NCBI GenBank assembly: GCA_036874045.1
Contig: CM072343.1
Location: forward strand, 13,102,001-13,166,000
DNA: 64,000 nt
DNA from: Cymodocea nodosa
Lineage: Eukaryota > Streptophyta > Magnoliopsida > Alismatales > Cymodoceaceae
Reading direction: 5' to 3'
The position numbers and the translations under genes were made by a program. Positions 3,506-59,800 of this stretch are shown piece by piece (within the stretch, counting starts at the first letter, position 1; every line of letters begins with the position of its first letter). A model generated the notes under the pieces. The model was not told the origin of the DNA. It made no database searches and worked only from the letters and a program-made list of their open reading frames with translations.

Positions 3506-4266
3506 TATTTAGAATGAAAAAGTGCATATTATTAACGGTTAAATGATGGTTAATTGCATAATATTTAGCTTATCATATAAGAATTAAGCCATTAAGTTAT
3601 AATTGCACTGTTATATGCTTTAATTGAAGAATCTACTTAATTTGGGGGAATTAATGCTAATTTAGTACATTTATGAACTGTCGGTAAGTTGCAAGCTGTG
3701 AAATTCTTAAGTATCCGAATTTTCTGATATTTCAGACAGTTATGTTTAACATACCGAATATATTCAGACAATTATGTTTAACAGACCGAACATGTATCGA
3801 ATAGTTATGTTTAAATTGCCAAACAGTTATGTTTTGAGAGAATATTTTATTATTTCCTGAAGTACACGTGTCGAAATCATAATGAATAGACTTAAGTGGA
3901 TTTTCGGTGAGTTAGTTGTAACTATCCGAAATGCAACTGAGCATCGGATAGTTAGACCTGTAACTCTCCGAAATGTTATTTTATGATTAAACTGCTGCTG
4001 ACACGTGTCGAGATCTGGTAGATTTACTTAAGTTATATATCGGTGAGTTATTAGTAACTATCCGAAATGCATCTAAACATCGGATAGTTAAGTTTATAAG
4101 TATCCGAAATGCACCTGAGCATCAGATAGTTAAATTTATGCATGTGTTGAATTTAAATGCTTTAGAATATCACGTAAGATGCACATGTTTAACTCGTTAA
4201 GTTAGCATAATTGTATGCGTTGAGTTACATGAATATTACACTAAGGTAACACGTTATGTTAGCAGC
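3506..4266 (+). repeat. Athila-1 5' LTR, left arm (U3)
   Basis: Aligns with 24,974-25,730 of the 3' LTR. It contains repeated TCGGATAGTTA / TAACTATCCGAA inverted motifs (about 3,900-4,130) and the block TTTAACTCGTTAAGTTAGC near 4,187 that is shared with copia-2 LTRs. It ends in GCAGC, the target duplication of copia-2b. Confidence 0.9.
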
Positions 4267-5880
4267 TGTAGGATCGTATGGCTACACAAGAGGGGGGTGA
4301 ATTATGTATTTTTAATATTTTCTGAAATATAATTGAAACTTTAAAACTCAAAAACAAGTCGAGACATTGTTTTCATAAAATCATTTTTATTCAAGGTTTC
4401 AATTACAATATACAATTCAATTCTCCTCAGAAATTGTAGATGCAATTATATTTCGATACTATGTATCATCTAAACAATTTCATAACTACAAATAGAGAAA
4501 ACTAATTTGCGGAATTTAAAACTTTTCTCCCTGTTTGAGATCTTTCTTATTCTTTTTTTTCTTCTTCAACAATTCTTCAGTGACGAATATCTTGTCTTTT
4601 CATGCTTCACCAAATTTGCTTTCTTCTGATACTTAAAATCTTCAGTGACGAAAATCTTACCTTTTTGTGCTTCACTGAACTTTCTTCCACTTGAGAGATT
4701 TTTCCCCGAGAAGGTGTTTTTGATCCCTAAACAAGATTTTTCTTTTGGTGTGCAGGGATGATTTGATCCTTGAAAAGATTTTTCATTTTGTGTGCAAGGA
4801 TAAATTGATCAATGAGAATTCTATGCCTTTTATACTGTATCTTCATTTCATTCATATCCTTCACGTTTAACCACCACCAGTTTTCCACTTCTCCACGTCT
4901 TTTCTTTTTCCTTCATCGAAACAACCACGTTCTAACCCACGTTTATATTTCAAATTTTCTTTAATCATCAGTCTTGGATCTCTGAAAAATTTCCTGCAAA
5001 ATAAACTTTCTCGTCTAAAAGTATTTCATTAGTGTAATAAGAAGTCGTTACTTTAATGTCAACTAAATGAGTGACACAAGTATATATATAACTTAATGTT
5101 TCTAACTTAACGAGTTCCTCATGTGCCATTTCACGTGACAAGTATTGTAGCTAACTCAACGAATTATGTCCGTGGTGTTATGATATCTCAACGAACCATC
5201 TCCATTGTCTTATGATAACTCAACGAACCATTTCCGTTGTGCTATGATAACTCAACGAACTAGTAATAAACAAATGTTTTTATAATAAGAATTTTACCGC
5301 GTGCAAAAATAACAACTTAAGTTTATAACGCTAACCTAACGCGTTGCCTTAGTGTTCAATATAGCAACTCAACGCGTTTAGTTATGTTAACTTAACGAGT
5401 TAAACATGTGCTCCTCACGTGATACAATACAACATTCGTAACTTATAATTTCACCACGTGTATAACACTAACTTAACGAGTTCATCTCTTCTTTTACTCA
5501 CTAACTTAATGAGTTATCATGTGACCTATTTTAACCTTTAAGCCTCTAACTTAGCAAGTTCTCACGTGACCTCTATACAAACAAAACTCTAACTTAACGA
5601 GTTTTCTAAACGTGCACTGTTCATGATACAGAAGATATAACATTAAAACATATCATGCTTTTCAATAAAAACACACGTTAACTTAACGTTTAGCTAAATG
5701 AGAAATTAATGCAACGAAATGACTAGTTATTAACTTCAGATCCAATACAGACAAGTATTTATATCAGTAAGTTTTTTCTGTATTAATTGATGATTTTAAT
5801 TTCTTTTCACAAGTAATAGTAATTGAGCAAATATGATTATTTTCATTCAACACACATCATCAAAACAAAAATACTCAACA
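4267..5880 (-). repeat. Copia-2b 3' LTR
   Basis: This LTR of 1,614 bases reads from TGTTGAGTATTTTTG (complement, ending at 5,880) to GATCCTACA (complement, starting at 4,267). A TATA-like TATAAAAGG lies on the minus strand at 4,826-4,834. U3 (about 5,080-5,720) holds many AACTCGTTAAGTTAG and GTTCGTTGAGTTA motifs. Confidence 0.9.
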
Positions 5881-6377
5881 ATCTCCCCCTTTTTGATGAT
5901 GACAAAACCATATTAAATCAATTATGAAATATGTATAACTCAACAAAGCACCTTCGTTGGGTTAACTTTTAATTCAATAAACTTGTTTGTTAACTTAAGT
6001 TCACTTAAGCTTATTTCTATTGTTTGTGTAAATTTTACCTCTCAGAACTAAAACTCTCAAATGTCAATAATTATATAAGTATCAGTTTTCTAATTACCAT
6101 CTATCAGATTACAATAACCATTCAATAGCATCTCCTTTTATAATATATATATATGCAATTAAAATCATAATCATCTTTTTATAATATTTCTCCCCCTTTT
6201 TGTCATTAATCAAAAAGATAATTACAGAGAATATATATACATATATAAGAGAATTACAACAACAATTTCTGTAAACAAGAATAATAATTGAACACATTTA
6301 CAGAAAAATCTATTGTTCAATGAATCAAACAAGTAATACAAACATTACATTTTGTATTCAGAAACAAACAAAAATAG
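5881..6377 (-). other. Copia-2b 3' non-coding stretch with two polypurine tracts
   Basis: The minus strand carries AAAAAGGGGGAGAT directly before the 3' LTR (5,881-5,894) and a second AAAAAGGGGGAGAAA at about 6,187-6,201. The same pair occurs in copia-2 and copia-1. No gene is seen. Short open frames here are AT-rich chance frames. Confidence 0.75.
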
Positions 6378-8642
6378 TTATTGACCCCTCCTAAGTATAT
6401 CACTTATAGCATTACATATTTTATCTCCTAGATGTCTAATATCATTTCTGATGTCGTTAAACACTACATCTAAGTCAGGAGGTAACTAGGTTTGCTGTTC
6501 TGCTTGAACTGAATAACTTTGTTGTTGTTGTTGTATATGGTCTGTATCAGGTTGTTGTTGTTGTTGTCGTTGAGGTTTATGCATGGCTTGGAATTTTTGC
6601 AAATCTTTGACACTAAATGCTCTCATACCTTTAGTTTCAGAGGGCCAGTCAGATAAAGTCAATTGGCTTGCAAGGATTCTACATACAGCATCACCATAAA
6701 ATAACTTTGAACTCATATGCTATAGTTGAGACATAAAAACATCAAACCAATTTATTTGAATTCTATTCAGTAGGCCATAAGTTGTATATAAATAGCTTCT
6801 GCTGACTTCCAAATTGTGTCCAACTCTCTGAAATAAATTTGCATACAATATATTTGCAATAAACCTTGCCTCTGCATTCAGATTTTCCATTAATCTCATT
6901 TCAAAATATACATCTGGAATTTTTGATAAAGACTAAATGTTCCATTTCAGTTGTCTTATCATGTCAAATCTGTTAGTAACAACAACACCTTCATTCTTTA
7001 ATCCTAAAACTTCAAAAATTAACTCAGGAGACAACATAAACTCTTGTTCATTTATTTGAGTTTTCATAAAATTTCCATTCTTGACCAGATTGCTATAAAA
7101 AGTTGCAATAAGCTCTATGTATTGCTTCCATTTCGTTCCTACTGGCAAGAATTTAATGAGGCCTTGAAACTCAAACAGATCTCTTATTTCCATCAAATTT
7201 TTGAATTTTATTCGACGAGTATGCAGAATTTGACATGTAATCAGATTATTGTATTTCTGCAATGCTTCTTCAGATCTAAAATGAATTGCATTACCTTGAA
7301 TTTTTAATATTGTACACAAAGAAGGTGATACCTGAAGCCGTGATTCAGAGTTTAATTCATCTTCAGGAACCTCTTCTTCAAAATGAATGTCATGTTCTTC
7401 TTCCAAAATATTATCTTGAAGCTGCTCAGGTAAGCTTGATTCTTCAGCTTCAACAGTGTTAGGAACATTGTCAATATGCTCAACATTCATCTGTTCAGTC
7501 TCTATAGAATGTTCAGAGTACAATTTTTCCATAAATTCTACAACCGGTGTATCTGTCTGTAATTGTTCATTTTGTTCAACAGATAATTCCATTGATTCAT
7601 GCTGTGAATTCTCAGACTCTACTTCTATAGATTCCGTAGAAGGCTGGTTAACTTTTAGCTCTTTTGGAGTCTTAACAATTTCAATATTTGCTACTCCAGA
7701 CAATTCAACCTTTGAACTAGTTACTGCCTCAACATTGTCAATTATATTTGCAATAATTTGTTCAATGTTAGGTGCCTGATGCTCTGATTTGTCAATTTCT
7801 ACATCATCAGGACTTGTACTAATAGAAAAACTTGAGCTCATATTTGACTTGGATTTCTTCTCAAGTTTTCTAGCAAGGGAAAATAAAGTCTCATTATTTT
7901 CATCAGTTTCAGTGTGTTCGGAACTGATGAGTTTATCAGATGCATAATAAGGTACAATGTCTAGACATGCATTGTCCTTTGGAAATAAATTTTCATCTGA
8001 TTTTCCTTTTTTAATAGACTTTGTTTCCTTAGACATAATTTTTCTAACTTTCCTTCTTCTATAACATTTTTGTTTCTCCTTTTCAAGTTTTGCTGTTTTC
8101 TTTTTAAATTGCTCCATAAAAGTTTTCTACTTTAATTCTTCTAAGGCACTTTCTATTGCAACTGCCTTTCGAAGACTATCAACTTTTGTTTTGTCTACAG
8201 CAATATCTGATTCTACTTGTTTTGAATATAAAGGAGTAGGGATAGCTGATTCATGCTCTTCCTCAAATGCATGTAGTCTTGTACCATTTATAGGAGTTTG
8301 AGGAGTTCTATTTGATAAACCTACACCTTTTTCCAAATATTTTGCATACTGTTCTAAAAATGCAATCTCAGCACATTTCATTCTGTATTCTCTATCATAT
8401 TTACTTCAAATACCTATGTATGTAATACTTGCATCAATATGTTGAAGTTCTTGTCTAACTTCATCTAATATATCTTGAGAAAAGAAGTAATCTCTATAAA
8501 GTTCTGCTAACCTTTTGTCCACTCGAAATATTTTCTTGAACCAAGTACGTGGAACTTCATCATTCTCTATTTCTTTTCCTTTTGCATCTCTTCTGCTTTT
8601 GCCTTTTCCTCTACCATGACCCTTGTAGAACTTGGAGACCAT
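6378..8642 (-). pseudogene. Copia-2b env-like region
   Basis: A roughly 750-codon region on the minus strand, broken a few times, parallels 44,357-46,623 of copia-2. It starts with a basic segment (KFYKGHGRGKGKSRRDAKGK). It continues with RTWFKKIFRVDKRLAELY, a Lys-rich part, a long acidic Glu/Ser/Asn stretch (7,380-7,860) and a folded-looking C-terminal half. That half includes IKFLPVGTKWKQYIELIA, FMLSPELIFEVLGLKNEG and KLFYGDAV, followed by a Gln-rich tail (about 6,500-6,570). The C-terminal half resembles the domain catalogued in plants as a putative transposon protein, by recollection only. SIRE-type elements carry an env-like frame in this position; no signal peptide or convincing membrane span is evident. 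The function is unknown. Confidence 0.75.
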
Positions 8643-8974
8643 TGTCGCAGGTTGTAACAGCAACAAGCGGGAAAGATTTTCTTGACAAAGTTTACAAATA
8701 ACCTAAGTCCCCGTGTAATAAGTGTTTAAATAGGGTTTTTAGGCGTATAACTCAACGTGAAGAGAAGTCAGGTTTAGAAATAAAATAAATATTGAATAAA
8801 GCTTATTCAATCAAAGTACCAAAAATATTCAAGTATAACTCGTTGAGTTAACTAACCTAACGAGTAAAACGCTGTCTAGAGGCAGTTTTACACGTTACCT
8901 TATCTAACATAACGTCTAGTTAGTACACAACAATTTTCAGATGCTTCCAACTGAAACGTTTAATATTTATCACT
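8643..8974 (-). promoter_or_regulatory. Copia-2b leader upstream of the env-like region
   Basis: In element sense this stretch runs from the 5' LTR end to the env-like start. It contains ATTTAAACACTTATTACACG (about 8,716-8,735), a TATA-like element about 75-95 bases before the env-like ATG. The same block precedes the env-like region of copia-2. A promoter or subgenomic start is possible but inferred. No gag is recognised here. Confidence 0.45.
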
Positions 8975-11427
8975 TGTAGGATCGTATGGCTACACAAGAG
9001 GGGGGTGAATTATGTATTTTTAATATTTTCTGAAATATAATTGAAACTTTAAAACTCAAAAACAAGTCGAGACATTGTTTTCATAAAATCATTTTTATTC
9101 AAGGTTTCAATTACAATATACAATTCAATTCTCCTCAGAAATTGTAGATGCAATTATATTTCGATACCATGTATCATCTAAACAATTTCATAACTACAAA
9201 CAGAGAAAACTAATTTACGGAATTTAAAACTTTTCTCCCTGTTTGAGATCTTTCTTCTTCTTCTTTTTCTTCTTCAGCAATTCTTCAGTGACGAATATTT
9301 TGTCTTTTCATGCTTCACCCAATTTGCTTTCTTCTGATACTTCAAATCTTCAATGACGAAAATCTTACCTTTCTGTGCTTCACTGAACTTTCTTCCACTT
9401 GAGAGATTTTTCCCCGAGAAGGTGTTTCTGATCTCTAAAAAAGATTTTTCTTTTGGTGTGCAGGGATGATTTGATCCTTGAAAAGATTTTTCGTTTTGTG
9501 TGCAAGGATAAATTGATCAACGAGAATTCTATGCCTTTTATATTGTATCTTCATTTCATGCATATCCTTCACATTTAACCACCACCAGTTTTCCACTTCT
9601 CCACGTCTTTTCTTTTTCCTTCATCGAAACACACATGTTCTAACCCACGTTTATATTTCGAATTTTCTTTAATCATCAGTCTTGGATCTCTGAAAAATTT
9701 CCTGCAAAATAAACTTTCTCGTCCAAAAGTTTTTCATTAGTGTAATAAGAAGACGTTACTTTAATATTAACTAAACGAGTAACACAAGTATATATATAAC
9801 TTAACGTTTCTAACTTAACGAGTTCCTCTTGTGCCATTTCACGTGACAAGTACTGTAGCTAACTCAACGAACTATGTCTGTGGTGTTATGATATCTCAAC
9901 GAACCATTTTCGTTGTATTATGATAACTCAACGAACCATTTCCGTTGTGTTATGATAACTCAACGAACCAGTAATAAACAAATGCTTTTATAATAAGAAT
10001 TTTACCACGTGCAAAAATAACAACTTAAGTTTATAACGCTAACCTAACGCGTTGCCTTAGTGTTCAATATAGCAACTCAAGGCATTTAGTTATATTAACT
10101 TCTTTTTCTTCTTCAGCAATTCTTCAGTGACGAATATCTTGTCTTTTCATGCTTCACCCAATTTGCTTTCTTCTGATACTTCAAATCTTCAATGACGAAA
10201 ATCTTACCTTTCTGTGCTTCACTGAACTTTCTTCCACTTGAGAGATTTTTCCCCGAGAAGGTGTTTCTGATCCCTAAAAAAGATTTTTCTTTTGGTGTGT
10301 AGGGATGATTTGATCCTTGAAAAGATTTTTCGTTTTGTGTGCAAGGATAAATTGATCAACGAGAATTCTATGCCTTTTATACTGTATCTTCATTTCATGC
10401 ATATCCTTCACATTTAACCACCACCAGTTTTCCACTTCTCCACGTCTTTTCTTTTTCCTTCATCGAAACACACACGTTCTAACCCACGTTTATATTTTGA
10501 ATTTTCTTTAATCATCAGTCTTGGATCTTTGAAAAATTTCCTGCAAAATAAACTTTCTCGTCTAAAAGTATTTCATTAGTGTAATAAGAAGTCGTTACTT
10601 TAATGTTAACTAAACGAGTAACACAAGTATATATATAACTTAACGTTTCTAACTTAACGAGTTCCTCTTGTGCCATTTCACGTGACAAGTACTATAGCTA
10701 ACTCAACGAACTATGTCTGTGGTGTTATGATATCTCAACGAACCATTTTCATTGTATTATGATAACTCAACGAACCATTTCCATTGTGTTATGATAACTC
10801 AACGAACCAGTAATAAACAAATGCTTTTATAATAAGAATTTTACCACGTGCAAAAATAACAACTTAAGTTTATAACGCTAACCTAACGCGTTGCCTTAGT
10901 GTTCAATATAGCAACTCAAGGCATTTAGTTATATTAACTTAACGAGTTAAACATGTGCTCCTCACGTGATACAATACAACATTTGTAACTTATAATTTCA
11001 CCACGTGTATAACACTAACTTAACGAGTTCGTCTCTTCTTTTACTCACTAACTTAACGAGTTATCACGTGACCTATTTTAACCTTTAAGCCTCTAACTTA
11101 ACGAGTTCTCACGTGACCTCTATACAAACAAAACTCTAACTTAACGAGTTGTCTAAACGTGCACTGTTCATGATACAAAAGATATAACATTAAAACATAT
11201 CATGCTTTTCAATAAAAACACACGTTAACTTAACGTTTAGCTAAATGAGAAATTAATGCAACGAAACGACTAGTTATTAACTTCAGATCTAATACAGACA
11301 AGTATTTATATCAGTAAGCTTTTTCTGTATTAATTGATGATTTTAATTTCTTTTCACAAGCAATAGTAATTGAGCAAATATGATTATTTTCATTCAGCAC
11401 ACATCATCAAAACAAAAATACTTAACA
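8975..11427 (-). repeat. Copia-2b 5' LTR, enlarged by tandem duplication
   Basis: At 2,453 bases it is about 840 longer than its partner LTR because of a duplication of 9,262-10,100. It carries two minus-strand TATA-like boxes (9,534-9,542 and 10,373-10,381) where the partner has one. Confidence 0.9.
9262..10939 (-). repeat. 839-base tandem duplication inside the copia-2b 5' LTR
   Basis: Copy 1 covers about 9,262-10,100 and copy 2 about 10,101-10,939. CTTCAGCAATTCTTCAG recurs at 9,272 and 10,111, and GGCATTTAGTTATATTAACT at 10,081 and 10,920; both pairs are 839 apart. The copies are nearly identical by eye, so the duplication is recent, and it includes the promoter, R and part of U3. Confidence 0.9.
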
Positions 11428-11432
11428 GCAGC

Positions 11433-12812
11433 TATTTCTTTATATTTTCTAATATGCCATTGTAGCGGTTGCAGAAACAGACAGTTGGAAAAGAAAAACC
11501 ACGTTTGCATGTATCACGTAGGAATTCAATCGCGTAGGGAAAGAAATCATCACCGTTGATACGAATGAAGGAAATCCAACCGACCATTCAAGCAGAAGCA
11601 GTTACTACTTAAGAAATATAAAAGAAAAGAAGAAAAAAAGAAGAAGTGTGTGATCGATGGGCGGACAGTGTGTGTAGAGGAGGATCGGCGACGCAATTCT
11701 CTGAAGTACCACACCAACCATCATCATCACCATCATCACCACCATAATCACCAACCATCGGAGGTCTGTGAGGATACTTACCTGATGTCGGGTCGATTCT
11801 GAGCCAAACACAGTGCCTGACAACCATTGTGAGGAGTGATCGCGTCGCGGGAAGGGAATCCATTTTCACCAAGCGCCGACTCATATTTCAGGAGATCGTA
11901 AAGCTTTTAGCCTTGGCTTCGGGTTGATGCCTGTATGCTGAAGAGGAGATCATCTTGCAATTTTGGACTCGCGATTCTATAGGGAGAGGAGATAGGATTG
12001 TAAGTGGTTTAATTTTTAGTGGTGTAATCACATTGCAAGTAGTGTCGGAAGTATTTATTGTCAAATGAGATTACTTTACATTTCACCTGTCGCCCATTTC
12101 CATGTTCATATTAAAACAAAAATACCAAAAACAATTTATCTATGTTTGTATGTTGTATTTGAGTGTTGTATTGTTTGTGTTGTATCATGATTAATGTTAT
12201 CTTTGTTAGTGTTGTAATTGTTTTATGTTTATTTTAGTTTTACAGTTTACTGAAATTGGTTACTTGAAAAGACGTAAAGAATTTAATGGTTGCTGTTTGA
12301 ATTATCTGAATGTTAGTATTGCTCAATGATAAATCCAATGTTTACTAACATTAAAGAGCTTAATTGATGTTATTTACAATCTATGGAATCGCCCAATGGT
12401 TGGCCGAATTCCTCTACAAATAGCAGTATTAAAAAGAAAAGTCAGGCTCATGGAGTTAACATAAGTCCACGAGGTTAGTCCGTTGAGTTAGCCATAACTC
12501 AACGAACGTAGTCCGTTGAGTTAGCTGTAATTCAACGGAGAGCTTATTGAATATATAAATTTGATTTTTAACAAACGAACAGTTCTCAAGTTCGTCAGCA
12601 ATTCCCTGTGGGATCGACCTGTACTTGCACACTGATACAATAGACATTATGCACTTGCAGTTAAAATACAAATTGGAATTAATATCTAAATTGTATTAAA
12701 GGTTGTTTGTTTACTTCTAAAAGAGAGAATAGGCATAAAGATAAATTAACTAAGTAAAGACAGAAGTAACAAATCCAAGTTTTTCTAGTGTAGTGATGGG
12801 AAAACCCAAACA
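11433..12812 (+). repeat. Athila-1 5' LTR, right arm (end of U3, R, U5)
   Basis: Aligns with 25,735-27,114. A TATA-like TATAAAAG lies at 11,617-11,624, followed by a purine-rich stretch and a GC-richer leader with CATCATCACC repeats (11,720-11,750). The TCCGTTGAGTTA / AATTCAACGGA hairpin is near 12,479-12,540. The LTR ends AACCCAAACA at 12,812. Confidence 0.9.
11617..11624 (+). promoter_or_regulatory. TATA box of the Athila-1 5' LTR
   Basis: TATAAAAG is conserved at 25,920-25,927 (3' LTR) and 48,488-48,495 (Athila-2). Transcription would start about 30 bases downstream, leaving an R/U5 of about 1.1 kb. Confidence 0.6.
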
Positions 12813-12821
12813 TTAACTTTA

Positions 12822-12839
12822 TGGCACCGTTGCCAGGGA
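12822..12839 (+). other. Primer-binding site of Athila-1 (tRNA-Asp type)
   Basis: TGGCACCGTTGCCAGGGA lies nine bases after the LTR end. The complement of the plant tRNA-Asp 3' end begins TGGCGCCGTTGCCGGGG, so 15 of these 17 bases agree. Athila elements are known to use tRNA-Asp. Confidence 0.85.
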
Positions 12840-12845
12840 ATTGAA

Positions 12846-15800
12846 TTGAATTCAATTAAGCAACTGTTAGAGCTGTTTTGTTTTAATAGCCAGAGTTGTG
12901 TGTTTTCTTCTGTAATTGAGAATATGGCATATGCTTATGCTCAAAGATTTCAGAAACCTATAATTAGCATATGTGAATTCTGTAATTCTGAAGGACACGA
13001 CATTTCTAACTGTTTGAAATTGAGACATTTATAGATGGTTAGATCCCATGAACAACAAATGAATTATCCTTAATATAATAGAGCCGAGTATGAGAATCCT
13101 ATAGTTTACCCAACTGATGGTCCGTATAGAATGTGTAATATGATGAGAGACACTGAAGTTTGGGATAGCTATGACATACTGGAGCATAGTATAGAGCAAA
13201 ATCTGGACAAACTGGAATACTTTGTGTGTCAACAACAAGAAGTCAACCAATTAAACTATAAGGAGGCATATTCAGAACCTAAAAAGGATATGATTTACGA
13301 AACTAAAAAAACCATAAAGAAAATTGATCAACAAGTGAATGCAATGAAATTAGATGATCTGGAAACAAAATTAAAAGCATTAAACGAAAATGCAATGAAA
13401 ATACAAGTTATGCAATAGGATAATGAAAATTATAATGTTATAAACCTGCATAGTTTGCAAAATATACAGCAAACAGAAAATACTAATGCAAGAGAATTTA
13501 AAGAATGCACTTTAAAACTAAAAACAATTGAAGATTATAATCACGAAAATGATATACAAAAACATCATGAAAGTAACGAAAATCTAGAAGATGTATGTGT
13601 AACAATAAGATCTGAAACTGATATACCACCAAGAACTCAAAATGAAAATGATATGAAGGTGGATAAGAGTAAAAATCAAAATGATAATGAAAATGTAATA
13701 GCTGAAAATCTAGAAATCACTAAAGAACAATCTGAATTTGCGAATGAAGCTAAAAATGATCAAACAAATCAACTAAAAGAAAAAGAGTCTTTGAAATCAA
13801 AATCTTTAGCACCCTATCCTGAAAGATTACAACAAACAATTCATGAAAAACAAGAAAAAATCAGAGAAATTTTTGAAAAAGTACAAGTTAACATTCTTTT
13901 GTTAGATTTATTGCAGAAAATGCCACCTTGTGCTAAATTTCTTAAGGATTGGTGTACTAAGAAAAGAGAGCGAAAAGTTCTTAGAAAGGTCTTTTTAGCT
14001 AAGCAAAGTAGTTCCCTATTTCTGCCACAAATTCCTAAAAAGTTATCTAATCTTGGAATCCCTATTATATCATGCACCATAGGAAATATCATTCTAGAAA
14101 GAACTTTAATAGACTTAGGTGCAGGTATAAATGTTATGCCAAGTGATATATTTGCATCCTTAGGATTAGAAGGCTTAACTCCTACTAGTACAGTTATTCA
14201 ATTAGCTAATAGAAGTATAAGATACCCTAGAGGAAAAATAGAGGATGTCTTAATTAAAATCAAAAATTTTATATATCCTATTGATATTGTAATTTTGGAT
14301 TCCCAACAAATTAAGCATAAGAATAGTGATACATCTTTAATTTTGGGAAGGCCATTTTTAGCAACATCAGGGGCTGTTATAAATTGTAAAGCTGGAGTAA
14401 TGAAGTTAGCATATGGTAATGAGGATACTCAATTAAATATTTTCATACTAGAAAGGTTTGAGGAGTTAGAAATGTCCTTACATACCATAGACTTTTTAGA
14501 GGATGAAGGAGATATGTTAGATGATGTGATTCAAGAAGAATTAAATAGGCAAATCAATTTTGAAACTTTAGAAGAAAGTGAAAGCATAAATATAGAAGGA
14601 GATTGGGAAGAAATTAATTTAAAAAATGATAATGTTCAATTAGGAGCTCTAGCTTCTGATGGGCAGCATTTAGAATTAAAACATTTACCTCCTGAATTAA
14701 CCTATATATTTCTGAAAGATAAACGAACTTGTCCAATCATTATTGCTTCAGATTTAAAAGAGTATCAAATAGCTAAATTAAAAGATGTAGTAAAAAGTTA
14801 TAAAGAAGCAATAGGATGGACTATGTCTGATATTAAAGGGTTAAGTTCAACTTTATGCTGTCACCACATATATTTAGAAGAGAATGCTAAACCTGTTAGA
14901 ATTCCTGAGAGGAGATTAAATCCAAACCTTAAAGAAGTAGTCAGGAAGGAAATAGTTAAATGGTTAGATAATGATATAATTTATCCGATTTCTGATAACT
15001 CGTGGGTTAGTCCAATCCATGTAGTTCCCAAGAAATCAGGATTAACAGTTATTAGGAATGAAAGTCAAGACTTGATACCTACTAGAATTCAATCAGGCTA
15101 GAGAGTATGTATAGACTATAGAAAGCTGAATGTTGTGACTAGGAAAGATCATTTTCCCTTACCTTTTATAGATCAAATGCTGGAAAGATTAGCAGGGCAA
15201 GAATATTTTTGTTTCCTAGACGGGTATTCAGGGTATATTCAAATTCCAGTAGCATTAGAGGATCAAGAGAAAACAACTTTCATCTATCCTAATGGAACTT
15301 ATGCTTTTAAAAAAATGCCATTCGGATTATGCAATGCGCTAGCTACCTTTCAAAGATGTGTGCAGGGCATATTTACTAGAATGATTGAAGATTTTTTAGA
15401 AATATTTATGGATGATTTTACTGTATATGGCAACTCATATGAAGTGTGTTTAAGCAATTTAGACCGAATATTAAAACGTTGTGTGGAAAAAAATCTGATT
15501 TTAAATTGGGTAAAATGTCACTTCATGGTTAAACAAGGAATAGTCTTAGGGCATGTTGTTTCTAAAAAAGGGTTGGAAGTAGATAAAGCTAAAATAGAAG
15601 TAATATCTAATCTACCAAAACCTAAATCAGTAAAAGATATTAGATTATTCTAGGATATGATCAGTAAAAGATATTAGATTATTCTAGGATATGCTGGTTT
15701 TTATAGAAGATTTATTAAAGACTTTAGTAAGATAGCTAGACCTTTAACTAATCTATTAAAAGATGTTCCATTTAACTTTAATAAAAATTGTAAGGAAGTA

Positions 15801-17602
15801 TTTTTCAGAGTTAAGACTAGCTTAATTTCGACTCCTATAATTCAAGCACCTCATTGGAACCATCCATTTGAGTTAATGTGCGATGCTTCTATTTTTGCTG
15901 TAGGAGTAGTGTTAGGACAGAAGATAGAAAAATCTCTTAGAGTTATTTATTATGCAAGCAAAACCTTAAATGATGCTCAAGTTAATTACACAACTACTGA
16001 AAAAGAATTATTAGCTGTTGTGTTTGCTTTAGAAAAGTTTAGATCATATCTGATTGGAGTTAAAGTAATAGTATACATGGATCATTCAGCTCTAAAACAT
16101 CTAATAAAGAAAAAAGAAACTAAACCTAGATTGATCCGATGGATATTATTATTACAAGAATTTGATCTAGAAATTAAAGATAAAAAAGGTTGTGAGAATG
16201 TAGTAGCAGATCATTTATCAAGATTACAAGTAGAAAAATCAAATATTGAAATTAAGGATAATTTTCCTGATGAACAATTAATGATCATTAACACAATGCC
16301 TTGGTATGCAGACATAGTTAATTACTTAGTTATTGGTTTAACACCTAAGGATTGGAATAGACAGGATAAGAAATTGTTTTTCTCAAGAGTAAAATATTAC
16401 TATTGGGAAGACCCATACTTATTTAAGAAATGTCCTAATCTGGTTTTAAGGAGGTGTATTCCAGAAACTGAATATCCGAGCATATTATTTTTCTGTCATG
16501 ACCAAGCTTGTGGAGGGCATTTTGGTTCAGGGAAAACTACTGCAAAAATTCTACAATGTGGGTTTTATTAGCCAACACTATTCAAAGATGCTCATAAATA
16601 TTTCTTAAGTTGTTTAAGATGTCAACAAATAGGAAGAATATCAAAGACGAATATGATGCCTCTTAATCCTATTGTTGAGGTTGAAATCTTTGATGTGTGG
16701 GGAATAGATTTTATGGGTCCATTTCCTATGCCTAATCAATTTAATTACAAATTGTTAGGGGTGGATTATGTATTAAAATGGATAGAAGCTATTCCTACAA
16801 AAACTAATGACAACAAAGTGGTAATTCAATTTATAAGAACAAATATATTTGCGAGATGTGGAATACCTAAAGCTATTATTAGTGATAGAGGAACTCATTT
16901 CTGTAATAGAAGTTTTGAAGCCTTAATGAAGAAATATGGAGTAAACCACAAAATTGCAACATCATATCATCCGCAAACAAGTGGACAAGTAGAAAGTGCA
17001 AACAAACAAATTAAATTAATCTTGGAAAAAGTAGGAAATCCTACTAGAACAGATTGGGCTAATAGATTGATAGGTGCACTTTGGGCTTATAGAATTGCTT
17101 ATAAAACGAGCTTAGGTATGTCACCTTTTAGGCTAGTATATGGAAAGAGTTGTCATTTACCTGTTGAAATAGAACATAAAGCTTATTGGGCATTAAAAAC
17201 TCTGAATACTAATTTAAATCAAGCTGCTGAAAATAGAAAAATGCAATTAATTGAATTAGAAGAATTTAGAAATGAAGTTATTCGAATACTGTAAGAGAAA
17301 AAGAAAAAATTAAATTTTGGCATGATAGAAAAATTATTCCGAAAAGCTTTGAAATAGGACAAGAAGTATATCTTTATATGGCTAGACTCCATAACCATCT
17401 AGGAAAATTGAAATCTAGATGGGTAGGACCTTACATAGTTCGAAATGTTTATCCTTATGGAGCTATTGAAATTGAAAATCCTAAAACTCAGAATATATTT
17501 AAAGTAAATGGACAAAGACTTAAGCCTATTCTGAAAACACCAAAAAGCTCCTTTGGAATTATAGAAGAAGTCAGAGTAGAGGACTACTCGAGCTTTACTT
17601 AG
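12846..17602 (+). pseudogene. Athila-1 zinc-knuckle/spacer and pol region (protease, RT, RNase H, integrase)
   Basis: The 5' part carries a CCHC zinc knuckle (CEFCNSEGHDISNC, about 12,972-13,013) but no capsid domain. A Lys/Glu/Asn-rich spacer follows (13,130-13,850). The retropepsin motif LIDLGAGINVMP is near 14,105. Reverse transcriptase covers about 14,890-15,640 with the active-site stretch FMDDFTVYG near 15,408. RNase H (about 15,870-16,240) shows [13 protein letters not shown] and the DHSALKHL motif. Integrase has an HHCC finger (about 16,495-16,640), then GIDFMGPFP (16,697), SDRGTHF (16,882) and [11 protein letters not shown] (16,977), giving the D-D-E order, and a C-terminal LKSRWVGPYIV (17,409). 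The motif style is Athila. It is broken, with roughly half a dozen breaks. Confidence 0.9.
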
Positions 17603-18250: not shown

Positions 18251-19593
18251 ATGAGGAAGATGACGCCTGAATTCTGGGAAGAGGCAGTTGACACCGCACA
18301 GTTTCTGAAGGAATTTGAAGAATGGTACACGAGGTAGAAGATCAGAAATACAACGAGAGAAAAAGAGTTACAGAAGGTAGAATCTGAACTTTTTAGATTA
18401 AGAAGAATATTAGTAGATTGTGGTATACAAATACCTCAGATAATGGAAACACGAATCAGAGTAGCAACTGAAATTGCAATTAGCAAAGAAAGAAAAATCT
18501 GGCCAAACAATGAAGTAGCCTTAGAGCTAATTCAACGTAAAACTAGATTGTGGTTTAAGAAATGCATTGCTGGTCGAGGAAGTTGGGAAATATGGCAGCA
18601 GGAACAACAAGAGGCAACTAAAGGACAAGAGGAGCCGACTGCTGAAAGACCTATTCCTGAGGAGCAGCAGCCTGAACCTTCAGTTCCACCATTTAAGCCG
18701 TTGGCACGAGCAGAAATGATGGGGCCTTCGACTGAAGAAGAAAAAAGAGAATTTGCAGAACTGGTTCAAGTTGGGAAGAACCAAGGAGAATCAGAAGATT
18801 TGGCAGTTGTCAAAGCACACCTAGTGTTTGATGCACTTTACGAAAAGAGCGCTGTAGAAAAGTTGAAAGCCTAATATAAAATCAAATTGGAACAGCATCA
18901 CGAAACTACTGCCAGAACTACTGCCAAATCTGCTACAAAAGGAGATGAAGCTGGTCCTTCGAGACTAGTAATTATAGGAAAAGTTAAACAGGAAGAGCTA
19001 GTACCTATGGCTCGAAGGCCTGCAGAGCCTATTTTTGTAGATTTAATTTCAGAAGATGAAGAGGAAGAACAGGCACAATTGATAAGAAAAAAGAAAGAAA
19101 AAGAAAAAGTGCCTGAATATGAGGAAATTAAATCTGAAGTACCAATTTTTATAGGGCCTATGGAGTAGATTTTTATTAACCTGTTGGTAAAGCACACATG
19201 GTAGCTAACATTCTGATTAAGAATGTTTATCAACGACAAGGCCATGAAATAGAATTAAGTCAATTTCTCAAATGGGCCACATATGCAATTGTAAATAAGA
19301 TCCAAATAAATTGGTCTGTAGTTTTTATCTCCAAGCTGAAAACAATGAAGAAGAAATTATTTTATGGAGATTTGATTCCACTGCTGATGGTGGATTGTAT
19401 CGATTTCACTAAATGGACATCAAAAAGGATCAGATCAAGAACCATTTCAGTGAAAGAATACAGAAATTTTGTAGCTGCAGAACTAGTTGTACCTTCTAAA
19501 GGAATTACAGGAGCTGTAGAGAGGATTAATCAATTAGAGTTTCAATTAGAAAAACTCTAGAAGGAAGTAGATGAACTTAGGCATAGAGATTAA
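18251..19593 (+). pseudogene. Athila-1 env-like region (shared with copia elements)
   Basis: The region starts MRKMTPEFWEEAVDTAQFLK. It continues with a helical segment (IAISKERKIWPNNEVALELI), a Gln/Glu/Pro-rich linker (18,600-18,720) and an acidic patch (DLISEDEEEEQAQ, about 19,041). The C-terminal part has ILIKNVYQRQGHE, NKIQINWSVVFISKL, KLFYGDLI and ISVKEYRNF, and ends in a short heptad-like tail. The C-terminal half matches, motif by motif, the env-like regions of copia-2 (FQRVGHN, NRIQINWFDVFMSQL, KLFYRDVV, FSVKDLQKF) and copia-1. Athila elements are known for an env-like frame after pol; no signal peptide or clear membrane span is seen here. Only the tail of this region remains recognisable in Athila-2 (about 55,005-55,055). 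It is broken, with a few breaks. Confidence 0.7.
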
Positions 19594-20494
19594 ATTGTAT
19601 TGTTCGTCTACTTAGGTAAAATTGTTTGAAATTGTATGATGTACTTGTATTGTAATTGATTCATATTAATGAATGTAAATTTTTCGGATGCAATTTTCAT
19701 ACGTGTTTTGGATGTGAAATGAATGGAATTTATTGAATATTATGTTATTGTGAAACTTTATGAATGAATATGTAACAGATTTACAATTTGCCAAATGACA
19801 AGATAACTGCTTAAAAATTTCTACATGTTATAAGGTAAAATGTAAATTCTGCATAACATAAAATGACTTGCAAGTTAAATCTTTATATAATGCTCAAATT
19901 TAAATGTATTTTAATTAGAATGATGCATTAATGACATAAATTTAACTTTATTACAGTTAGTAGAATGAAAAAAAAAAGAAAAGAACAGAGAGGAACTTAC
20001 GAGAGTAAAACTTAGTTGTTGCTAAGTGTTAACTCAACGAAGTAAGTTCACTGAGTTAACCGTAACTCCACGAGGTCAGTAATATAATATAAAGTCACTC
20101 CGTTGAGTTATCTGTAACTCAACGAAGTTAGTCCATGGAGTTAACAACAGTAACCGACTGTATTCTGTTGAGTTTTCTGTAACTCAACGAGGTTAGTTCG
20201 TGGATTAAGCAGAATAGTTATTCTTTTAACCACGAACGAAGCTTCGTCGGTTTAGCAGTTACCAAAATTTGAAATTAGTAGTGATACACGTATCCATATG
20301 AACAAGAACCACGATGCACGTTGCAAGACACGTTCTTGTAACGAGATTTATTCACTTTATGGATGTGCAGTATATATATAAATCAGAATGTTATTTATGA
20401 GTTACCAGCACTTTTAAAAGAAAGGAGAAGGCGTTGGAGGAACTGGAAGGAGAAGCAGCTGATTCAACTTCATCCGACAACAAATATTTATAGA
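19594..20494 (+). other. Athila-1 spacer upstream of the F-box exon, with hairpin motifs and TATA-like site
   Basis: No gene is seen. The stretch is about 70% A+T with T-rich runs, then a cluster of CCGTTGAGTTA / TAACTCAACGAAG inverted motifs and TCCGTGGAGTTA variants (20,030-20,210). A TATA-like TATATATATAAAT lies at 20,371-20,382, about 115 bases before the F-box ATG. The matching stretch in Athila-2 is 55,056-55,937. It may be the captured gene's own promoter and leader, which is inferred. Confidence 0.6.
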
Positions 20495-20512
20495 ATGGAA
20501 AGCTTCAGACTA
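20495..20512 (+). pseudogene. F-box gene in Athila-1, exon 1
   Basis: A six-codon first exon (MESFRL) ends at a strong plant splice donor, GTATGT at 20,513. The identical six codons open the intronless F-box frame of Athila-2 at 55,938, which fixes both the start and the exon end. The upstream leader is also conserved (AGCAGCTGATTCAAC near 20,453 and 55,894). I call this an exon because of that comparison; no transcript evidence is available here. Confidence 0.7.
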
Positions 20513-22066
20513 GTATGTAATTAATCTTCTACTATTTATTTATGAGCACATGGACTCGTTCTCTAAGTACTAAATGATTAGTAAGAACACCTACCTAGGA
20601 ATTTTCATTACAGAGGAGTACTGAAAAATTTTCTGAACTGAACTTTAATGAAATTCTTTGGAGTGTAGCTAACCTTTCTTTAAAAGAGAGTGTAGAGATG
20701 GCTGCTCTAGTAGAAAAACCATTAGGAGAGATTCTGTATCCTGAATTAATTGATGAACCTTCATGTATTCGATTGCCAAACTTTGAGGGAGATAGGTTTG
20801 AACTGAAATCTAATTATATTAGTCAATTACCACATTTTCATGGATTAGAAAGAGAGGATGCCTATTATTTCCTTAGAGAATTTAACGAAGTTTGTCAAAT
20901 GATGAAAATGCCAAACATGAGTATAGATGCTATTAAACTTAGATATATCCCTTTTTCTTTAAAAGACACAACTAAGAGATGGTTATATACTCTATCGCCT
21001 GATTCAATTTCTATATGGATTGAATTTTGCTCTGTTTTTCTGGAAAAATATTATCCAACACATCAAACGATTAAAAAGAAGAAAGAAATATTAATGTGTA
21101 GCCAAAAACAAGGTGAATCATTCTGGAAATATTTTGAAAGATTTAAAGATTTACTGACTCAATGTCCACATCATGCAATGAGTAAAGCACAATTAATAGG
21201 TATAATTTATGAAGGCATAGATGTTTCAATGAAATCTTTATTAGAATCTACTTGTCAAAATGGATTTTTAAAGTTATGTAGTGAAGAAGCATGGGCATAT
21301 TTAGAAAATTTTGCAAAAAGAACTGCATAGTGGGAAAATTCAGTTGAAGCTATTGTAGATAAAAGAATATTGCCAAGAGGAATGCATAAAATAGATTCCA
21401 ATACTATGCTTGAGGTGAAATTAAATGAATTAACAAAGAAAATAGAAGAGTTATCATTAAATCAAAAGCTAGCAGAAAAGAATGCAAACATAAATGACTT
21501 AGATATTATTTATGCTAGAAACCAAAGAGATAACTTGGGAAATTCTTATCATCCTAATTGGAGAAATCACCTGAATTTATCTTGGAGAAACAATAATTTC
21601 TAGGGAGGAGAAAATATAAATGAGAAAAACATAAGTTATGAAGTATTAATTGAACAAGGAGCTAGAATAGAGAAATTAGAAAAGATAATCCAACAAATAA
21701 ACAATCGTCTAGAATTTATATTTGGAAATGTTGCAATTCAAAATCAAAATAGAAATATATCACTTAGACAGAAGGAACCAATCGAAGTTAGACCTACTAG
21801 AGGATTGCCAATACAAGCTATACCTAATCCTGTCAATAGAACGGTTAATGAAATTGATACCTCTTTTGGGAGGGCAGCTGAATGAAGCAACATATTTGAA
21901 GCAATTATCTGTATGTATATATGTTTTTTATTTTTAGTCAATAGTATCGTAGAGTTAATTTTTAACTCAACGAACTTAGTCCGTTGAGTTATGCCTTAAC
22001 TCCACGAGGGTGTGCAGTAGTTAGGTTAATTTTTGTCTCTGCTAAATTTTTGTTTATGTTTTATAG
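20513..22066 (+). other. Intron of the captured F-box gene, holding the gag capsid region
   Basis: The 1,554-base stretch runs from GTATGTAATT to a T-rich acceptor, TTTATGTTTTATAG. At the matching place Athila-2 reads straight across from exon 1 to exon 2 with no gap, so the stretch behaves as a spliced intron. It contains a capsid-type gag region (20,698-21,884) in the same sense. Downstream of that are family-typical hairpin motifs (AACTCAACGAACTTAGTCCG near 21,964). Athila elements are known to use splicing for their env-like frame; splicing around a captured F-box has not been described to my knowledge. Confidence 0.7.
20698..21884 (+). pseudogene. Athila-1 gag capsid region, displaced to the 3' side of pol
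   Basis: The region is the Retrotrans_gag capsid of Athila. It reads YISQLPHFHGLEREDAYYFL, then FNEVCQMM, then IPFSLKDTTKRWLY, then FLEKYYPTHQTIKKKKEI, then GESFWKYFERFKDL, then CPHHAMSKAQLI (about 20,810-21,215). A helical linker follows, and then the Athila hallmark YHPNWRNHLNLSW near 21,547. A Gln/Asn-rich C-terminus ends near 21,884. There is no zinc knuckle here; the only one in the element is at 12,972, before pol. In known Athila elements all of this lies at the 5' end. It is broken, with a few breaks. No counterpart is seen in Athila-2. Confidence 0.85.
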
Positions 22067-23214
22067 ATTCGACAAATGGAATTGATGCAATTACCGTTGG
22101 ATGCACTAAGGGAAGTACTAAGTAACTTGTCAGCTAAAGATCTGTGCAGGCTGTGTTGTGTATCAAAGGAAATTAAAGACTGTATTGAAGAAAAATATTT
22201 TCAGGGACTACAAGCTGCAAAAATGACTATGATTAGAGATGGATTCATATGGAGATCATTTAATCGTAGTGCAAGTACCCATGAATATCTGGCTATGGAA
22301 GAAACTACTGGAATTCCACCCAATGCATTACAAGGAATAAATCATATTATGGGGATAGATGAAGGATTAATCATATACAAGACGAGACCAAGGTATGCAA
22401 GTTTATTATTACCTAATATTTTGATAAGAAATCCTATAACAAGAGAAGAATGGAATATAGGAAGACCTAATAGATTTGAAGCACCAATTGTAAATTGTGG
22501 GTCAGCTTTGATATTTTCTGATAAAAATTCTGCAATTCTTGAAAAATTATATTATTGGAGACCTACAGGAAATTGAGGTGAAGATTTACGCTTAAGTGTG
22601 TATAATTTTCTGAACAGATCTTGGAATGAAAATATTATGATATATCTAGGACAGAAATCATTAATTAACCAAACACATGTTATACTTGATGGATATATAT
22701 ATCTAGTCACAGAGATATCATTAGCATATGGATTTGATTTATACATAGTGAGCATAGATAGTTATGATGAATATATAGAAAGTTTACTTGTACCGAGTGA
22801 AATAGCTAAACCACCATCTGCAAAATTTAATGAAATTCAAATAGGAGTGTGGTATAATGAAGAAGATGATCCTACTTTATGTCTGATAAGATGGTGGGAT
22901 GAATTGATGAAATTTCAAATATGGATTATGGAAGACATAAATGAATGGAAGTGGGAAGAGGAGTATATTGAAATAGATGTAGAAATAGAAACTGCTACAT
23001 TACCTTGAAACCAAAAAGGATCCCTTTCTGCATTACATATCATTAATGGTAATACACTCGTATTTGGAATTTATAATATATTGCATGTTTACAAATTAAG
23101 AAGGAACAAGAACTGCATTAAAACAGAATTAATAGCAAGAAGAACTATGCCTAAAAATTTGCTTGGACTGATACATTTATTCCATTTGTTTCTACTTTTC
23201 AATCATGTTCTTAA
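22067..23214 (+). pseudogene. F-box gene in Athila-1, exon 2 (captured plant gene)
   Basis: The product starts with an F-box (LPLDALREVLSNLSAKDLCR, about 22,091-22,150, followed by LCCVSKEIKDCIEEKYFQ), the SKP1-binding module of SCF ubiquitin ligases. The remaining 330 or so residues resemble an F-box-associated beta-rich substrate domain, including LLLPNILIRNPIT, EEWNIGRPN and the FQIWIMEDINEWKWEEEY stretch (about 22,915). The length fits plant F-box proteins of about 380 residues. The same gene in the same place in Athila-2 (55,938-57,104) shows the capture predates both copies. The Athila-1 copy carries about three breaks. What it might recognise is unknown. Confidence 0.8.
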
Positions 23215-24973: not shown

Positions 24974-27114
24974 TGTTTAGGAAGAAAAAGTGCATATTAT
25001 TAACGGTTAAATGATGGTTAATTGCATAATATTTAGCTTATCATATAAGAATTAAGCCATTAAGTTATAATTGCACTGTTATATGCTTTAATTGAAGAAT
25101 CTGCTTAATTTGGGAGAATTAATGTTAATTTAGTACATTTATGAATTGTCGGTAAGTTGCAAGCTGTGAAATTCTTAAGTATCTGAATTTTCTGATATTT
25201 CGGACAGTTATGTTTAACATACCGAACATATTCAGACAGTTATGTTTAACAGACCGAACATGTATCAGATAGTTATGTTTAAATTGCCGAACAGTTATGT
25301 TTTGAGAGAATATTTTATTATTTTTTGAAGTACACGTGTCGAAATCATAATGAATAGACTTAAGTGGATTTTCGGTGAGTTAGCTGTAACTATCCGAAAT
25401 GCATCTGAGCATCAGATAGTTAGACCTGTAACTCTCCGAAATGTTATTTTATGATTAAACTGCTGTTGACACATGTTGAGATCTAGTAGATTTACTTAAG
25501 TTATATATCGGTGAGTTATTAGTAACTATCCGAAATGCATCTGAGCATCGGATAGTTAAGTTTATAAGTATCCGAAATGCACCTGAGCATCGGATAGTTA
25601 AATTTATGCACGTGTTGAATTTAAATGCTTTAGAATATCACATGAGATGCACATGTTTAACTCGTTAAGTTAGCATAACTGTACGCGTTGAGTTACATGA
25701 ATATTACACTAAGGTAACGTGTTATGTTAGTAGCTTATTTATTTATATTTTCTAATATGCCATTGTAGCGGTTGTAGAAACAAACAGTTGGAAGAGAAAA
25801 ACCACGTTTGAACATATCACGCAGGAATTCAATCGCGTAGGGAAAGAAATCATCACCGTTGATACGAATGAAGGAAATCCAACCGACCATTCAAGTAGAA
25901 GCAGTTACTACTTAAGAAATATAAAAGAAAAGAAGAAAAAAAGAAGAAGTGTGTGATCGATGGGCGGACAGTGTGTGCAGAGGAGGATCGACGACGCAAT
26001 TCTCTGAAGTACCACACCAACCATCATCATCACCATCATCACCACCATAATCACCAACCATCGGAGGTCTGTGAGGATACTTGCTTGATGTCGGGTCGAT
26101 TCCGAGCCAAACACAGTGCTTGACAACCACTGTGAGGAGTGATCGTGTCACGGGAAGGGAAGCCATTTTCACCAAGCGCCGACTCATATTTCAAGAGATC
26201 GTAAAGCTTTTAGCCTTGGCTTCGGGTTGATGCCTGTATGCTGAAGAGGAGATCATCTTGCAATTTTGGAGTCGCGATTCTATAGGGAGAGGAGATAGGA
26301 TTGTAAGTGGTTTAATTTTCAGTGGTGTAATCGCGTTGCAAGTAGTGTCGGAAGTATTTACTGTCAAATGAGATTACTTTAAATTTCACATGTCGCCCAT
26401 TTCCATATTCATATTAAAACAAAAATACCAAAAACAATTTATCTATGTTTGTATGTTGTATTTGAGTGTTGTATTGTTTGTGTTGTATCGTGATTAATGT
26501 TATCTTTGTTAGTGTTGTGATTGTTTTATGTTTATTTTAGTTTTACAGTTTACTGAAATTGGTTAGTTCAAAAGACGTAAAGAATTTAATGGTTACTATT
26601 TGAATTATCTGAATGTTAGTATTGCTCAATGATAAATCCAATGTTAACTAACATTAAAGAGCTTAATTGATGTTATTTACAATCTGTGGAATCGCCCTAT
26701 AGTTGGCCAAATTCCTTTGTAAATAGCAGTATTAAAAAGAAAAGTCAGGCTCGTGGAGTTAAATAAGTCCATGAGGTTAGTTCGTTGAGTTAGCCATAAC
26801 TCAACGAATGTAGTCCGTTGAGTTAGCTGCAATTCAACGGAGAGCTTATTGAATATATAAATTTGATTTTTAACAAATGAACAGTTCTCAAGTTTGTTAG
26901 CAATTCCCTATGGGATCGACTTGTACTTGCACACTAATACAATGGACACTGTGCACTTGCAGTTAAAGTACAAATTGGAATTAATATCTAAATTGTATTA
27001 AAGGTTGTTTGTTTACTTCTAAAAGAGAGAATAGGCATAAAGATAAATTAACTAAGTAAAAACAGAAGTAACAAATCCAAGTTTTTCTAGTGTAGTGCTG
27101 GGAAAACCCAAACA
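24974..27114 (+). repeat. Athila-1 3' LTR
   Basis: Starts TGTTTAGGAAG after the polypurine tract and ends AACCCAAACA. Its 2,141 bases equal the 5' LTR once copia-2b is removed. U3 carries GGATAGTTA / TAACTATCCGAA motifs (25,200-25,610) and the copia-shared block at 25,638-25,733. A TATA-like TATAAAAG lies at 25,920-25,927. Confidence 0.95.
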
Positions 27115-27119
27115 TTAAC

Positions 27120-29695: not shown

Positions 29696-29699
29696 ATCA

Positions 29700-49659: not shown

Positions 49660-49740
49660 TGAATTGAACTTAATTGAATTGAATTGAGACGAAGTAAATT
49701 GAATTGAATTGAATTGAATTGAATAGATATAAGCAACTGT
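49660..49740 (+). repeat. GAATT pentamer repeat after the Athila-2 primer site
   Basis: TTGAATTGAATTGAATTGAA-type repeats cover about 49,659-49,725, several units longer than the equivalent place in Athila-1 (12,840-12,858). This is likely replication slippage. Confidence 0.8.
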
Positions 49741-58859: not shown

Positions 58860-59795
58860 TGTTTAGAATGAAAAAGTGCATATTATTAATGATTAAATGA
58901 TGGTTAATTGCATAATATTTAGCTTATCATATGAGAATTAAGCCATTATGTTATAATCGCACTGTTATATGCTTTAATTGAAGAATCTGCTTAATTTTGG
59001 GGAATTAATGTTAATTTAGTACATTTATGAACTGTCGGTAAGTTGCAGGCTGTGAAATTCTTAAGTATCCGAATTTTCTGATATTTTGGACAGTAATGTT
59101 TAACATACCGAACAAATTCGGACAGTTATGTTTAACAGACTGAATATGTATCGGATAGTTATGTTTAAATTGTCGAACAGTTATGTTTTGAGAGAATATT
59201 TTATTATTTCCAGATGTACACGTGTCAAAACCAGAATGAATGTCTTAAGTGAACTTTCGGTTATGTTAGCTGTAATTATCCGAAAAAAACTTAAAGATTT
59301 TAATGGTTACTGTTTGAATCATCTAAATGTTAGTATTGCTTAATGATAAATCCAATGTTAACTAGCATTAAAAAGCTTAATTGATGTTATTTACAATCTG
59401 TGGAATCGCCAATTGGTTGGCTGAATTCCTCTGTAAATAGCAGTATTATAAAGAAGAGACAAGCTCGTGGAGTTAACTTAAGTCCACGAGGATAGTCCGT
59501 TGAGTTAACTGTAACTCAACGGAGTGCTTATTGAATATAAATTTGAATTGTTCACAAACAAACATTTCTTAAATTCGTCAGCAATTCCCTGTGGGATCGA
59601 CCTGTACTTGCACACTGATACAATAGACACTATGCACTTGCAGTTAAAGTACAAATTGGAATTAATATCTAAATTGTATTAAAGGTTGTTTGTTTACTTC
59701 TAAAAGAAAGAATAGGCATAAAGATAAATTAACTAAGTAAAAATAGAAGTAACAAATCCATGTTTTTCTAGTGTAGTGCTGGGAAAACCCAAACA
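58860..59795 (+). repeat. Athila-2 3' LTR (short form)
   Basis: Starts TGTTTAGAATG and ends AACCCAAACA, with 936 bases against 1,955 in the 5' LTR. It keeps the outer U3 and the U5, including the CCGTTGAGTTAACTGTAACT hairpin near 59,495. Confidence 0.9.
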
Positions 59796-59800
59796 GTTAG

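Follow-up and report, generated by a model that had tools for sequence, protein, structure and literature searches.

A stretch of 64,000 nucleotides of Cymodocea nodosa DNA (here called the window) contains two related retrotransposons, Athila-1 and Athila-2, that raise a question about gene expression and gene loss. In Athila-1, an F-box gene near the 3' end is interrupted by an interval that holds the capsid region, and in Athila-2 exactly this interval is missing. How are the capsid and the F-box protein made from such an arrangement, and by what route did the sister copy come to lack the capsid? Our analysis of the window and of the genome leads us to favor, with considerable though not complete confidence, an Athila-type Ty3/gypsy family with a split gag, in which a choice of splice acceptor would determine whether capsid or F-box is expressed and RNAs spliced in either manner would have returned to the genome by reverse transcription.

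Table 1. Features of Athila-1, Athila-2, and the 3' cassette, in window coordinates.
Feature	Position	Strand	Remarks
Athila-1 5' LTR	3506..12812	+	pieces 3506-4267 and 11433-12812; split by nested insertions; TSD TTAAC 3501-3505
Athila-1 5' ORF region	12829..13418	+	CCHC knuckle (CEFCNSEGHDISNC), without capsid; adjoins LTR end and PBS-like stretch
Athila-1 protease-like region, RT, RNase H, integrase	13419..17294	+	several frames
Athila-1 ORF1/env-like remains	18338..19560	+	match to longer ORF region of another copy
TATA-like box (TATATATATAAA)	20371..20382	+	candidate internal promoter of 3' cassette; ~124 nt upstream of ATG
Exon 1, MESFRL	20495..20512	+	ATG at 20495; common to both predicted products
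GT-AG interval, 1,554 nt	20513..22066	+	missing at Athila-2 and 188 other junction matches
Mini-intron, 101 nt	20513..20613	+	putative proximal acceptor TTTTCATTACAG, AG 20612-20613
Capsid-type Gag ORF (RSTEKF...GRAAE), probable alternative exon	20614..21885	+	two in-frame stops in Athila-1
F-box exon 2	22067..23214	+	PF00646, E 8.6e-11; Athila-1 frame broken, in two frames
Athila-1 3' LTR	24974..27114	+	TSD TTAAC 27115-27119; 95.7% identity to 5' LTR pieces
Athila-2 5' LTR	47678..49632	+	TSD GTTAG 47673-47677
Athila-2 5' ORF	49713..50729	+	CCHC knuckle, without capsid
Athila-2 F-box gene	55938..57104	+	exons fused at 55955/55956; one in-frame stop 56541-56543
Athila-2 3' LTR	58860..59795	+	internally deleted; TSD GTTAG 59796-59800

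Borders were read letter by letter and by self-alignment of the 64-kb window, and Pfam places RT, RNase H, and integrase in gypsy order on both elements (Table 1). We take the family to be Athila, a lineage label that rests on the anatomy, the Gag, and earlier naming; likewise, the stretch beside the 5' LTR end of Athila-1 is presumably PBS-like, and the ORF region after pol is presumed to be ORF1, or env-like. An undivided 5' gag, with the capsid first and the nucleocapsid second, is a feature of the Athila lineage that is not found in the two window elements or in 11 readable copies, the capsid lying near the 3' end instead. The Athila-1 protease match (E 2.6e-4) falls below the family cut-off, as does the PF20167 match of an ORF similar to Athila-1 ORF1 at window positions 45577-46482. 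Because the LTR pieces within each element's pair share 93.6-96.7% identity in the self-alignment, neither insertion can be very recent. Related LTR-like pieces lie nested within the Athila-1 5' LTR (4268-11432), polypurine-tract-like stretches at 23630-23670 and 24955-24973, separated by about 1.3 kb, precede its 3' LTR, and long open frames at 29688-32507 have, by eye, a copia-type integrase and RT look.

The ORF region after integrase is present in Athila-1 and another copy and has been lost in Athila-2. The missing ORF1/env-like stretch (18086-19543 compared with 55003-55006) is also absent from an interval-bearing copy, L069 (upstream of L018), and Athila-2 and L069 form an ORF1-less subfamily. 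Splicing was set aside as the cause of this loss, as its borders are not GT-AG as read. Another copy, L071 (upstream of L031), has no pol: its LTR and short leader run directly into sequence from just upstream of the F-box/capsid cassette, and it is a short derivative retaining the cassette.

The structure of the 3' cassette is consistent with an intron. In the self-alignment, Athila-1 19544-20511 and 22066-25399 match Athila-2 55006-55954 and 55955-59285, with nothing in between in Athila-2. The interval starts with GTATGT at 20513 and ends with TTTTATAG at 22066, exon 2 following from 22067. The borders claimed in the preliminary description, 20,512/22,067, thus prove exact to the base by sequence reading and self-alignment, and Athila-2 does run without a gap across the same point, exon 1 being joined directly to exon 2. 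The further claim that a capsid-type gag lies inside the interval in the same sense as the F-box agrees with the Retrotrans_gag and F-box Pfam matches.

For comparison, 39 other cassette copies and Athila-2 were retrieved from the plant's own genome (374.6 Mb, 28 contigs; 41 matches from the best 40 of 2,891 first-look candidates). The donor GT is kept in 38 of the 39 other copies, and the distal acceptor, readable in 33 of 39, is AG in 28. The other five readable copies (L009, L020, L023, L035, and L040) have AA and could perhaps represent a lineage making capsid only. Among the 38 donor-GT copies, the last letter of exon 1 is G in 27 and A, as in Athila-1, in 11. The commonest border form is CTG/GTATGT...ACAG/AATCGAC, and its GT-AG product, CTGAATCGAC, is identical to the Athila-2 reading; from these borders, the CTG/AATCGAC of Athila-2 can be read as the spliced product.

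The choice of reference affects how the Athila-2 gap is placed. With Athila-1, the gap fits best when shifted leftward by one base, and GT-AG is found in none of three gaps, because Athila-1 differs at the border letters. L018 and L010 were chosen as references for having the same border letters as Athila-2; with either, nine gaps of at least 30 bp are seen, and GT-AG occurs only in that of Athila-2, which can be placed equally well in two ways, GT-AG being one. Use of L031 as a reference was dropped, its own duplication creating 230-bp false gaps (GT-AG in 1 of 50). Ragged deletion edges, which had been named as evidence that would count against splicing if seen at this place, do occur in the family, but at other borders.

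The fused junction is common in the genome. A 30-base spliced junction, with at most 2 mismatches tolerated, occurs 189 times including Athila-2 (89 forward and 100 reverse), some of these places perhaps being segmental duplicates, and the reversed control of the pattern has 0 matches. Among 100 junction matches listed, 71 are exact and 29 have one mismatch. A 131-base query over the Athila-2 junction returns at least 40 matches including Athila-2 at 98-100% identity; 38 of the 40 scored cover positions 1-131 in full, and the remaining 2 stop short by one or two bases at an end. A search for intron-minus copies with the exact border had been proposed as a check, and the genome supplies 188 junction matches beyond Athila-2. 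Multiplication of a capsid-less form is suggested by these 189 matches without the interval, with capsid absence elsewhere in the element read in Athila-2 (tblastn, window). Athila-2 itself is bounded by LTRs and flanked by a 5-bp target duplication.

The direction of change is indicated by trees and by shared deletions. In a 31-row tree built from exon 2 and 3' sequence, Athila-2 falls in a clade of 12 with 100/100 support, and of the other 11 rows 10 retain the interval and 1 has a ragged deletion; this tree is biased toward intron-plus copies, which came from a query holding intron bases. Because an interval-bearing copy has the ORF1 deletion of Athila-2 too, the change in the interval is best read as a loss. 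For the intron-minus side, 1.15 kb was taken at 5 of the 188 other places (3 exact and 2 chosen for a mismatch beside the junction) together with Athila-2. A 1,084-base tree, for which four of the six intron-minus rows are long enough, needs four changes, its bootstrap being unsettled. A 594-base exon-2 tree with all six needs six changes, four of them forced by well supported branches (4 of 34 inner branches are well supported). A single clade is rejected for the six intron-minus copies (AU p 6.7e-50). Trees from different stretches, on the other hand, group some copies, such as L010, L022, and L039, differently, which points to recombination, and recombination could mimic repeated loss. The fused junction therefore appears to be either plural in origin or spread by recombination.

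Could the fused junction have arisen in a single splicing-and-copying event, with recombination of co-packaged RNAs then carrying it to other backgrounds? Retroelement RNAs recombine, and the shifting company of L010, L022, and L039 is what such exchange would leave behind. It would also suit the letters beside the junction, where exon 1 ends in G in five of the six intron-minus copies and one upstream haplotype is common to four. Yet there are three upstream haplotypes among the six, and differences lie to either side of the junction, in the 33 bases before it as well as in the first bases of exon 2, so that every transfer would have required a double exchange confined closely to the junction; moreover, grouping just the four closest copies in one clade is already rejected (p 9.4e-4). 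We regard a single origin as unlikely, though it is the alternative to be taken most seriously. Repeated copying of spliced RNA would also have to be distinguished from precise DNA deletion, or from conversion by spliced cDNA after insertion. Either is possible for any single copy, but the eight other gaps of the family are not GT-AG, the 189 junction matches are dispersed, and Athila-2 carries LTRs and a 5-bp target duplication; we consider such a DNA-level origin highly improbable.

The opposite polarity, in which the ancestor lacked the interval and a capsid piece inserted into the exon created the intron, might seem to be favored by the one-base ambiguity of the border and by the abundance of both intron-plus and intron-minus forms. 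The preliminary description had named a target duplication as the mark of such a later insertion, and no duplication beyond one G is seen. Athila-2 and L074 are placed within interval-bearing groups, and insertion would require the same piece to have entered at the same base repeatedly, so that we give this reading hardly any credence. The proposal that Athila-2 descends from a spliced, reverse-transcribed element RNA is well supported by the GT-AG removal, the nesting among interval-bearing rows, and the 188 further junctions.

The preliminary description had also supposed that capsid is made from unspliced RNA. This is probably not the case. Read upstream from its first Met, the capsid ORF stays open as far as the acceptor-like TTTTCATTACAG, 101 nt behind the donor, and use of the acceptor at 20613 would put it in frame with the MESFRL of exon 1. 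Of 41 rows, 3 (including Athila-2) have no recognizable region here, 35 were parsed, and 3 were left unparsed; AG stands at the proximal acceptor in 35 of the 38 rows holding the region (33 of 35 parsed; among the unparsed, 2 AG and 1 AA). Some of the joined MESFRL-capsid frames have stops or a shift, as expected in old copies. By itself the proximal acceptor would be weak, because other AGs in the interval score equally well or better: on a crude score over the 118 AGs, 3 outrank the distal acceptor and 6, the distal one among them, outrank the proximal. Without the single genomic junction described next, the case for this acceptor would remain weak. The proximal junction was predicted from sequence before the genome was searched, and at up to 3 mismatches it was found at exactly one place, C17:2987041-2987070, with 30 of 30 bases identical and 0 matches in the control. 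The in-frame link to exon 1 and the single genomic instance of the junction together make it probable that the capsid is encoded by an alternative exon and is not a product of unspliced RNA. The suggested splicing switch thus survives in part: the choice between capsid and F-box is indicated by the sequence, whereas the capsid would come from the proximal splice and not from the unspliced transcript.

The position of the capsid is also unusual. The interval protein is a Retrotrans_gag domain (PF03732, E 2.7e-19 and 7.9e-19) with 31 relatives in the protein database, whose named sources are all plants and none of which is termed Athila by its source. It aligns along the length of six plant Gag relatives, shares columns conserved in 23 relatives, and is without the CCHC block that is present in five of those six. 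A CCHC knuckle sits instead at the 5' end, in the ORF leading toward protease, and in neither window element does the capsid occupy its usual 5' position. In 20 other 5' regions, the LTR end and nucleocapsid ORF are within tens of bases of each other in 11, the junction being unreadable in the other 9, and tblastn with Gag on these 20 regions gave nothing significant (best E 0.17). On the window, the same search found the Athila-1 interval and one weak match (E 0.011). The Athila-2 5' ORF has no Pfam match at E <= 1, and a homolog search with the 5' ORF found none. The gag of this family thus appears to be split, with the nucleocapsid knuckle 5' and the capsid 3'.

Whether the displaced capsid ORF still matters to the element bears on how the splice sites should be read. 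The sites could be real and the capsid ORF a passenger relic, working capsid being supplied by another family, in which case there would be no functional switch. Codon-phase counts of shared variants are flat, as this would predict (43/41/44 in gag and 36/33/41 in the F-box; one of five stretches had a single row and gave no result). At a minor count of at least 5, synonymous changes are 20 of 40 in gag (4 of 40 being stop changes), where about one-third of transitions would be expected, and 23 of 57 in the F-box, a slight excess; the excess fades at lower cut-offs (42 of 114 in gag at a minor count of 2). Being transition-dominated and near flat, the codon-phase and synonymous counts were rejected as a test of selection. 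Frames are broken in most of 40 copies and open in some, and intron-minus copies have multiplied without the capsid, both of which would suit a relic. Inherited indels, counted when present in at least 3 of 27 copies, appear to be the clearer sign of constraint: there is 1 in 1,187 bp of gag and 0 in 1,151 bp of F-box exon 2, against 16 in 663 bp of 3' UTR and 3 in 179 bp at the 3' end of the interval. The count took the 27 of 41 rows that were long enough, and low-complexity tracts inflate the 3' figures. It is not a clean test, because the 5' UTR (116 bp) and the mini-intron (101 bp), both non-coding, are also without inherited indels. Nevertheless, the rarity of inherited indels in gag, as in the F-box, a gag frame of 423 codons open in at least one copy, and the columns shared with 23 relatives all speak against a mere passenger, and we consider a relic unlikely.

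The F-box gene, which the preliminary description called captured, is at most a candidate for capture: for its ORF, no relatives were found at E <= 0.001 among 1886 candidate proteins and none in the PDB at E <= 1; an FBA_3 match to the F-box protein (E 5.4) was discarded. Upstream of the cassette, at least one match to TATATAT, TATAAA, or TATATAA lies between -125 and -118 in 41 of 41 rows, which are close relatives.

We predict that the family works as follows. The nucleocapsid knuckle would stay 5' with protease and pol, and the capsid, between pol and the 3' LTR, would be an alternative exon of a two-product gene. If both acceptors are used in living plants, one donor (20513) would join the proximal acceptor (20613) to yield MESFRL-capsid or the distal acceptor (22066) to yield MESFRL-F-box. 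Distal-spliced RNAs that still have both element ends could be packaged and reverse-transcribed, giving rise to the ~189 copies without the capsid interval, and such copies would have to borrow capsid in trans from particles made by other transcripts, comparable to BARE2 on BARE1 particles. The F-box protein may serve the element, perhaps through SCF-mediated removal of a host defense factor; that it counters host defense is a guess by analogy to viral F-box proteins. With 189 distal fossils compared with 1 proximal fossil, genomic RNA may have undergone distal splicing much more frequently than proximal splicing. Alternatively, and this too is a guess, proximal-spliced RNA could come mostly from an internal start at the TATA-like box near 20371 and hence be uncopyable. 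More broadly, and only tentatively, we propose that the capsid moved from gag-pol to a 3' alternative exon of the F-box gene, that host splicing could set how much capsid is made relative to polymerase and relative to an F-box effector, and that replicated spliced genomes may keep making capsid-less parasites of their own family, a reading that we find plausible but hold with less than even confidence.

Parts of this scheme have precedents. Splicing of plant LTR elements is described for BARE, EVADE, Ogre, and Bagy2 in the passages cited (PMC3735527, PMC12786077, PMC7264820). For Diaspora, the cited passages propose that env could be lost in one step if an RNA with aberrant splicing was packaged and copied (PMC1142308). 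The family considered here appears to resemble the Athila, Calypso, and Diaspora lineage (PMC1142308) in Gag and pol type and in having an ORF after pol, and it differs in two ways: Diaspora lost env, with splicing conjectured, whereas here the capsid is lost at a GT-AG border and the product is found 189 times; and Diaspora has one gag-pol ORF, whereas here gag appears to be split (PMC1142308). BARE1 and BARE2, as portrayed in the cited passages, offer a likeness in a subgenomic spliced RNA for Gag and in a Gag-deficient subfamily parasitic on the other (PMC3735527). Splicing of BARE favors Gag (PMC3735527), however, whereas here the distal splice removes the capsid, and RNA spliced in this way has apparently itself given rise to genomic copies. 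EVADE and Ogre have functional introns that lead to subgenomic RNAs (PMC12786077); the EVADE splice removes the protease domain, and a capsid alternating with an F-box is not described for either element in the passages cited (PMC12786077). In the Cer1/CERV elements of Caenorhabditis elegans, according to the cited passages, spliced mRNA gives an extra protein and unspliced RNA gives GAG and POL (PMC10309623), but the host is different and the extra protein is an export factor for genomic RNA, not an F-box protein (PMC10309623). Polerovirus P0, an F-box-like silencing suppressor, is portrayed in the passages that we draw on as a parasite-encoded F-box motif binding SKP1; the likeness is one of guessed function, and no sequence relation is claimed.

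A split gag with capsid as an alternative exon did not turn up in searches of free-licence papers. The present family would add sequence evidence for one-step gene loss through a packaged, copied spliced RNA, so far a proposal in the passages cited (PMC1142308), and would connect the choice of splice site with the origin of subfamilies that lack the capsid. The junction counts, 189 at up to 2 mismatches compared with 1 at up to 3, may be a fossil record of packaged spliced RNAs. Overall, the family differs from the known systems in its displaced capsid, in the alternation of that capsid with an F-box, and in the large genomic record of the spliced form.
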